DNA of 64,000 nt from Halorubrum sp. BOL3-1 (GTDB lineage Archaea; Halobacteriota; Halobacteria; Halobacteriales; Haloferacaceae), in NCBI RefSeq assembly GCF_004114375.1, contig NZ_CP034692.1, positions 1,984,001-2,048,000 of the forward strand, in the 5' to 3' direction. Position 1 is the stretch's first letter, and the number at the start of each line of letters is the position of its first letter. The notes under the pieces were generated by a model. It saw only the letters and a list, made by a program, of their open reading frames with translations. It was not told where the DNA came from and made no database searches. Of the stretch, positions 45,476 through 48,153 are shown in pieces. The position numbers and the translations under genes are program-made.

Positions 45476-45692
45476 GGTTTTTCGCGGGGACGGCAGCGTC
45501 CTCAACGTACCGGTCTCGGGCGGGGCGACCGTACCGGTCCCGAGCGAATCGTACCGTGCCCGCCGCCGAGCGCGTCGCCCCCCGAGAATCCTCCTCTTTT
45601 TTAATCGCTCAGGGGAGAGGTGCCCTCCGATCTGCCGCTGACGACGGTCTCGACGACGAACGCGGTTATCACTTTTGATACCCAGGAGGCAG

Positions 45693-45700
45693 TTATTATA
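45693..45700 (+). promoter_or_regulatory. TATA box of the transducer-rhodopsin operon
   Basis: TTATTATA centred about 32 nt before the ATG at 45729. This spacing fits a near-leaderless transcript starting at that ATG and is too far from the next in-frame ATG at 45801. Confidence 0.55.
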
Positions 45701-45728: not shown

Positions 45729-45800
45729 ATGCAAGAGGAATCGCCTTCCGGGGTCTGATCGAGCTACGGCGCGAAGCTCGCGCTGTCGCTCGTCGGGGTC
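45729..45800 (+). other. Apparent true 5' end of the transducer gene, interrupted by TGA
   Basis: ATG at 45729 is in frame with the long transducer frame. After MQEESPSGV comes TGA (45756-45758), then [14 protein letters not shown] leading directly into the first transmembrane helix. Other haloarchaeal transducers have a basic residue and Tyr just before this helix, so one C-to-T change of a CGA Arg codon would explain the TGA. It is either a real nonsense mutation, a recoding event or a sequence error. Confidence 0.6.
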
Positions 45801-47399
45801 ATGGGGGTCTCAGTTTCGTACGGGGTCATCGTCTACCTCCGCGCGGAGGAGGCCGGGGGCGCTGGCGCGGAAGTGCGCTCCGGGCTCGTGGGGATAACGC
45901 TGTTGACGGTGATCGGGCTCGCGCTCATCGGCGTCACGGTCGGGTCGAACACGGTCATCTCCTTACGCCAGCTCACGGCAAAGGCCGATCGGATGGCCGA
46001 GGGAGACCTCGACGTGACGCTACGGACGGGGCGAACGGACGAGATCGGGCGGCTGTTCCGGGCGTTCGACGAGATGCGCGGCTCCCTTCGGTCGGAGATC
46101 GACGACGCCGAGACGGCCCGCGAGGAGGCCGAGCGGGCCCGACGGGACGCGAACGCGCGCGCCGAGACGGTCGAGCAGAAGGCGACGGAGTACGAGGCCG
46201 CCATGCGCGCGCTCGCCGACGGCGACCTGACGCAACGGGTCGACCCGGACGGCGACAACGAGGCGATGGCGCGGGTCGGTACCGCGTTCAACGAGATGGC
46301 CGCAGAGCTGGAGGGGACCGTCGCCTCGGTCGCGACCGTCGCGGAGGACACCGCCGACGTCGCCGGCACGGTCGACGACCGCACCGACAGCCTGCGGGCG
46401 ACGACCGGCACCGTCTCCGAGGCGGTCACGGAGATCGCCGAGGGCGCGCGCACCCAGCGCGACGACCTCCGGGCGGCGACCGACGAGGCCGAGAGCCTCG
46501 CCTCCTCCGCCGAGGAGGTGGCCTCGACTGTCACGGACGTGGCCGAGACGGCCGAACACGCGGCCGCGGTCGGTGAGGAGGGCCGCGAGGCCGCCGAAGA
46601 GGCGCTGACGGAGATGGACGCCGTCGAGGAGTCGACCGCGGAGACGACCGAGGAGATCGAGGCGCTCGCCGCGGAGGTCGAGGAGATCGGCGAGGTGGTC
46701 GACGCCATCTCGGAGATCGCGGAGCAGACGAACCTGCTGGCGCTGAACGCGTCGATCGAGGCGGCGCGCTCCGGGGCCGACGGCGCCGGCTTCGCGGTCG
46801 TCGCCGAGGAAGTGAAGTCGCTCGCGGAGGAGACCCAGGAGTCCGCGGGCGAGATCGAAGCCCGGATCCACGCGGTCCAGGAGCGCGCCGAGACGGGTGC
46901 CGCGGCGATGGCCCGCACCGAAGAGCGGATCTCCGCCGGCGTCGACACCGTCGAGACCTCGATCGACGCGCTCGAACGCCTCGCGGAGGCCTCCGAGCGG
47001 ACCGACACGAGCATGGACGAGATCACCGACGCGACCGAGACGCAGGCGGACTCCGTCGACGCGGTCGTCGGCCACGTCGAGGACGTCTCCTCGATCAGCG
47101 CCCAGACAGCGAGCGCCGCCGGCGACGTCACCGGGGCGGTCGACGAGCAGGAGGAGACGCTCTCCGCGGTCGAGACCGCCGCCGGGTCGCTGTCCGAGCG
47201 GGCGCGAGCGCTCAGGGGCGCCGTCGACGACTTCTCGTTCGACGCGGCCGAGACCGACGTTTTGGGGGCGGTCGGTGCCGAGGCCGCGACGGCGTCCGGG
47301 ACCGTCGTCTCCGACGGCGGCGGGTTCGAGTTCGCCGAGGGGGAAACGGACGCCGGAGACTACCGTCCGAACCCGGCCGACGGGGAGGAGGTGAACTGA
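45801..47399 (+). CDS. htr: Sensory rhodopsin transducer (Htr, methyl-accepting protein); 5' end damaged
   Basis: The uninterrupted frame gives 532 aa from an internal ATG that would cut the first membrane helix in half. A second helix follows ([20 protein letters not shown]), then a HAMP domain ([20 protein letters not shown]) with a second HAMP-like unit near residue 145, and the signalling hairpin with [20 protein letters not shown] and [20 protein letters not shown]. There is no large extracellular domain, as in transducers that bind a rhodopsin. It is coupled to the rhodopsin gene one nucleotide downstream. It should control CheA and flagellar switching in response to light. Confidence 0.88.
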
Positions 47400-47400
47400 G

Positions 47401-48153
47401 ATGCTCGTCGACACCGCCGTCTGGGCGTGGATCGGCCTGCTCGCGATGGGCGCCGGTACCGTCCCCCCGCTGTGGGCGTGGTACTCTCGGTCCTCGGAGG
47501 CGGGCGAGTCGCACGCGGTCTACTACGCCACGCTCGCCGGGGTCACCGGCGTCGCGGCGCTCGCGTATCTCTCGATGGCGCTCGGGTTCAGCACGGTGGC
47601 GACGCCCGGCGGCGACCTCCCGCTCTCCCGGTACCTCGACTGGCTGATCACGACCCCGCTGCTGCTTCTGTACCTCGGCCTGCTCGCTCAACCGTCGCGC
47701 CGCGTGCTCGGCGGGCTGATCGCGGTCGACGTGGTGATCATCGCCGGCGGGATCGCCGCAGTCGTCACGACGGGAACGCTCTCGTGGGGCCTGTTCGGGA
47801 CCGCTTCGGCGGCGTACGCGGTCCTCGTTTACGGGCTCCTCGTTTCGCTCTCACGGTCGGCCTCGGCCGAGGGAGGTCGGGTCCGGGCCGTCTTCGGGAC
47901 GCTCCGGAACATCACCGTCGTCCTCTGGACGCTGTACCCGGTCGTGTGGCTGCTCGCCCCGACCGGATTCGGAGTCCTGACGCCCGCGACGGAGATGCTC
48001 GTGTTCGTCTACCTCGACATCGTCTCGAAGGTTGGATTCGTCGTCGTCGCGGTCGCGGGCGCGGACGCGCTCGACCAACTCGACCTCGGTGAGGCGGAGG
48101 GCTCGACGGCGTTCGAGCCGTCGGGCGCAGCCGCAGAGCCGAGCGACGACTGA
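47401..48153 (+). CDS. sop: Sensory rhodopsin (SRII-like)
   Basis: Seven-helix retinal protein of 250 aa. The retinal Schiff-base Lys210 is in VYLDIVSKVGF with the second counterion Asp206. Helix C has Arg77 and Asp80 (RYLDWLITTPLLLLYLG). The position of the proton-pump donor Asp of bacteriorhodopsin is Tyr91, as in sensory rather than pumping rhodopsins. The segments TLRNITVVLWTLYPVVWLLA and VYLDIVSK, with Tyr204 at the transducer-binding Tyr position, look SRII-like, although GTLSWGLFG recalls SRI. The transducer gene ends 2 nt before its ATG. It should signal phototaxis. Confidence 0.9.
   Translation: MLVDTAVWAWIGLLAMGAGTVPPLWAWYSRSSEAGESHAVYYATLAGVTGVAALAYLSMALGFSTVATPGGDLPLSRYLDWLITTPLLLLYLGLLAQPSRRVLGGLIAVDVVIIAGGIAAVVTTGTLSWGLFGTASAAYAVLVYGLLVSLSRSASAEGGRVRAVFGTLRNITVVLWTLYPVVWLLAPTGFGVLTPATEMLVFVYLDIVSKVGFVVVAVAGADALDQLDLGEAEGSTAFEPSGAAAEPSDD

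Follow-up and report, generated by a model that had tools for sequence, protein, structure and literature searches.

Does Halorubrum sp. BOL3-1 still make the transducer of its sensory rhodopsin II (SRII)? The gene of the htrII type that precedes the SRII gene carries an in-frame stop at codon 10, read as TGA at 45756-45758 of the window, the whole 64,000-nucleotide stretch of DNA analysed here. In genome coordinates the stop is C3:2029756-2029758. The sequence-only reading of this DNA had described the TGA and the continuation of its frame, correctly; after the stop the same frame remains open for 546 codons, to position 47396. We hold with good confidence that this is a very recent, private nonsense allele which leaves SRII without its transducer. 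The alternatives are an error in the sequence, a start downstream of the stop and readthrough.

Structure of the locus

The comparison set was the sequence preceding the SRII gene in 35 other Halorubrum genomes. The frame from 45729 is not a chance open reading frame, because all 36 genomes have an ATG ten codons before SSYGAKL, and Arg occupies codon 10 in every genome but that of BOL3-1. The ATG is therefore well placed, as had been proposed from its sequence context. The TATA box that had been noted 32 nt upstream also holds up; the TATA-like TTATTATA is located about 32 nt 5' of the ATG and is kept in seven aligned relatives. The coordinates of the locus are given in Table 1.

Table 1. Features of the htrII-SRII locus of Halorubrum sp. 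BOL3-1, in window positions
Feature	Position	Strand	Evidence
Promoter region 5' of the gene, with the GTTATCAC element and the TATA-like TTATTATA at 45693-45700	45665-45700	+	Kept in 7 aligned relatives
ATG and first nine codons (MQEESPSGV) of the htrII-type transducer gene	45729-45755	+	Same start position in 36/36 genomes
Premature TGA, codon 10	45756-45758	+	Arg in 35/35 relatives
Remaining transducer frame, 546 codons and normal TGA stop (47397-47399)	45759-47399	+	No stop in frame; HAMP and MCPsignal in Pfam; N. pharaonis HtrII as top PDB match
First membrane helix, about codons 17-37	45777-45839	+	Hydropathy; alignment to N. pharaonis HtrII
Following ATG in frame (codon 25), within the first membrane helix; sole reinitiation candidate	45801-45803	+	Met in 30/36 genomes, Thr in 6
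Second membrane helix, about codons 49-71	45873-45941	+	Hydropathy
HAMP domain	45963-46091	+	Pfam PF00672, E 7e-17
MCP signalling domain	46578-47096	+	Pfam PF00015, E 8e-38
Intact SRII gene, separated from the transducer stop by 1 nt	47401-48153	+	PF01036 in Pfam; N. pharaonis SRII as top PDB match

The transducer frame has the properties of an HtrII. A sensory rhodopsin gene adjoins it with a gap of 1 nt, two membrane helices are followed by a HAMP and an MCP signalling domain, and among solved structures the transducer of SRII from Natronomonas pharaonis (2f95_B) is the nearest. Both domains are found by Pfam in the frame lacking the first ten codons, and 2f95_B is matched with E 4e-24 when the N-terminus is left out. 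Reading through the stop extends this alignment toward the N-terminus and improves the score to E 2e-26; the stop is then aligned with an Arg in N. pharaonis HtrII (NpHtrII). The frame from the conserved start is interrupted by the TGA, and the gene is therefore an HtrII by ancestry whose present allele is broken.

The rhodopsin gene downstream is intact, in agreement with the first reading of the locus. The codon for the retinal Lys210 is located at 48028-48030. In N. pharaonis SRII (NpSRII) Lys205 binds retinal while Tyr199 and Thr189 serve transducer binding (PMC3274258), and in an alignment to 8pwg_A the BOL3-1 protein shares equivalents of all three. The retinal Lys and the Tyr199 equivalent are invariant among the 35 SRII sequences of the genus that were read, from BOL3-1 and 34 relatives. 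Thr204 is required for signalling in NpSRII (PMC3274258), whereas its equivalent is Ser in all 35 Halorubrum sequences; the Ser is therefore a trait of the genus and not a sign of decay.

Comparison with other Halorubrum genomes

All 35 relatives encode Arg at codon 10 (CGG, CGA or AGA) and have an open frame with no stop. TGA at this codon is restricted to BOL3-1 among the 36 genomes; the residue is otherwise invariant and the segment flanking it is nearly so across the genomes compared. The expectation of an Arg at this site, drawn earlier from known transducers, agrees with the relatives and with the aligned residue of NpHtrII. The proposed conversion of an Arg codon to TGA is likewise supported by the 35 relatives, and a single transition from CGA would most simply account for it.

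Age of the probable mutation

Branch values were obtained as three-point distances from pairwise distances only. The terminal branch of the transducer has a dN of 0.047 and a dS of 0.17, and the resulting ratio of 0.27 lies within the range of 0.10-0.32 seen among the 28 branches whose dS exceeds 0.08, although it is higher than their median, 0.21. Besides the stop, one private change (M56I) was found at a column that is invariant in the rest. If the transducer had been free of constraint along the entire branch, about 5-7 nonsense changes would be expected, and one is seen. The dN/dS within range, the few private changes and the number of nonsense changes together argue that any inactivation is recent, and relative to the divergence of the species it would be very recent. 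A long-standing pseudogene was rejected on the same grounds, the rest of the gene being without the marks of long decay. The well-kept rest of the gene fits a recent mutation, and it fits a sequence error or a rescue of translation equally.

Sequence quality

A sequencing or assembly error, in which the true codon at 45756 is Arg and the transducer is functional, is unlikely, though it is the alternative that deserves the most weight. The rest of the gene looks functional, with its promoter, its start, 546 open codons and constrained evolution, and a single substitution is how an error is expected to appear. On the other side, when conserved genes of the window were set against six relatives, leaving shadow frames and alternative upstream starts aside, no internal break was found in about 32 conserved genes other than the transducer, which alone is broken. 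This favours good sequence quality in the window, which does not by itself settle a single base. An error or deamination specific to CGATCG was tested and found no support. This motif is depleted and TGATCG is enriched in the BOL3-1 sequence compared with shuffles, but the depletion reaches a similar degree in the relatives, and differences of CGATCG to TGATCG are not in excess at aligned sites. Because the stop is found in none of the 35 related species, it probably arose by an ordinary mutation of recent date that severed the sensor, though conceivably it is only a sequencing error.

A separate pattern was seen for CTCGAG, which is strongly depleted in the window (0.14 of expected) as well as in the relatives G045, G048 and G022 (0.09-0.18) and, to a lesser degree, in G027, G036 and G016 (0.38-0.49). 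TTCGAG is enriched about 1.5-1.7 fold alongside it, and CTAG is depleted too. The pattern looks as if a site of restriction or methylation were avoided or had been lost across the genus.

Alternative starts and readthrough

Reinitiation or an internal start at the ATG at 45801 would give a shortened transducer that works fully or partly. We regard this as improbable. The ATG is in frame, 14 codons past the stop, and Met25 is conserved in 30 of 36 genomes. Against this, Met25 is replaced by Thr in six intact relatives and is therefore not a conserved start, and initiation here would remove the N-terminus together with about 8 of the 21 residues of helix 1, leaving about 13 as judged by hydropathy. 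It had been claimed that half of the helix would be deleted; the truncation stands, and its extent is slightly less than half. A start elsewhere that yields a full helix was looked for and not found, since neither GTG nor TTG occurs in frame between the stop and 45801, and in-frame starts further upstream still meet the TGA. This lack of a GTG or TTG alternative sets the gene apart from the GTG-started transducer of Haloarcula marismortui. The earlier suggestion of reinitiation, possible only at 45801 within helix 1, thus gained no support.

Programmed readthrough, or recoding of the TGA as an amino acid, is very improbable. The frame after the stop does stay open and constrained, but TGA is the normal and commonest stop in this DNA, ending 21 of 32 conserved genes in the 64-kb window, htrII and SRII among them. 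It occurs at codon 10 in 0 of 35 homologues, so there is no conserved recoding programme. No suppressor tRNA was found among the tRNAs recovered, which do not include tRNA-Trp. From 52 tRNA matches in the genome, none of the tRNAs named by ARAGORN has a UCA anticodon; one tRNA reported without a full anticodon resembles, by our own inspection, a tRNA for Ala(UGC), and another match, unrecognised, looks to us like an intron-bearing Glu tRNA. Haloarchaeal tRNA-Trp carries a long intron, and this tRNA, absent from those recovered, falls outside the anticodon survey. For tRNA-Sec there was no match over the cut-off, and the sub-threshold matches mostly coincide with ordinary tRNAs. Recoding, which the sequence-only reading had put forward, was rejected as unlikely on stop usage and the tRNA survey. 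That readthrough at a useful rate gives a little full-length HtrII, with the stop codon tuning the ratio of transducer to receptor, is hardly credible.

The tRNA survey also found a tight array of nine genes (Gln, Asp, Pro, three Ser, two Leu and Tyr) on contig C3 at about 891288-892635 (L139:1789-3136). Several of them duplicate tRNAs located elsewhere in the genome, and the array resembles the tRNA cluster of a phage or mobile element.

Motility, chemotaxis and rhodopsin genes in the genome

Genome-wide statements rest on searches of the 4 contigs, 3.67 Mb in all, that make up the genome. Three rhodopsin genes were found, and SRII is the only one among them recognised as sensory. The other two score closer to ion-pump rhodopsins in a genus-wide comparison and are probably pumps. 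The taxis genes include three archaellin matches, CheA, CheB, CheR and CheW, and twelve MCP domains score over the cut-off, that of the htrII-type transducer included. General decay of motility was rejected on the presence of these archaellins, Che proteins and MCP domains; a TGA that had been flagged in the CheW match is the normal end of cheA. Outside this gene, no transducer in the genome exceeds 43% identity to the N-terminal region of HtrII, a value that the nearest one reaches over 106 residues.

Predicted consequences for the sensor

The favoured reading, a recent nonsense allele, can be described as a short series of steps. In the BOL3-1 lineage only, the Arg codon at position 10 would have become TGA. 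Translation from the conserved start would then give a peptide of nine residues, and so no full-length transducer would be expected. Because the SRII gene is intact, SRII may still be produced, provided that the operon message is translated from SRII's own start. SRII signals via HtrII to CheA (PMC3274258), and by this mechanism a cell without HtrII would lose the SRII response. With SRII the only sensory rhodopsin found and the taxis system otherwise complete, the stop, if real, disconnects that sensor, and a strain otherwise equipped for chemotaxis and motility would no longer avoid light by way of SRII. The comparison points, as had been suggested, to a receptor that lacks a working transducer, with Arg in 35 of 35 relatives and an intact SRII gene downstream.

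A limited literature search found no published accounts of broken htr genes. If the stop is real, the strain is a natural transducer knock-out, in which the sole sensory rhodopsin is intact and its sole cognate transducer is cut at codon 10, and it could serve directly for studying how SRII behaves in a native cell when its transducer is missing. The locus is also a caution that one annotated 'phototaxis' need not be functional. What is known of phototaxis and of the genetic code is unchanged. The case is ordinary in kind.

Comparison with known systems

The transducer of Haloarcula marismortui reportedly starts with GTG (Fu et al. 2013, cited in PMC6450946). The BOL3-1 gene is like it in having a start that needs re-examination, and unlike it in that no GTG or TTG bypasses the stop.

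The locus resembles the SRII-HtrII pair of N. pharaonis (PDB 2f95, 1h2s and 5jje) in its two membrane helices, its HAMP and MCP signalling domains and the lack of a large outer domain. It is unlike N. pharaonis HtrII in the premature TGA at codon 10, where NpHtrII has Arg. In the alignment the equivalents of Asn74 and Glu43 of NpHtrII are Gly and Arg in the HtrII of BOL3-1, and with the Ser at the Thr204 position throughout the genus the contact between receptor and transducer may differ in Halorubrum from that in N. pharaonis.

The closest likeness is to the intact htrII-SRII loci of the 35 other Halorubrum genomes, for example those of H. kocurii, H. saccharovorum and H. trapanicum, which agree with it in promoter elements, in gene order and in where the start lies. 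Their transducers are 75-91% identical to that of BOL3-1 over the aligned part, and they differ from it in the Arg at codon 10 and the open frame.
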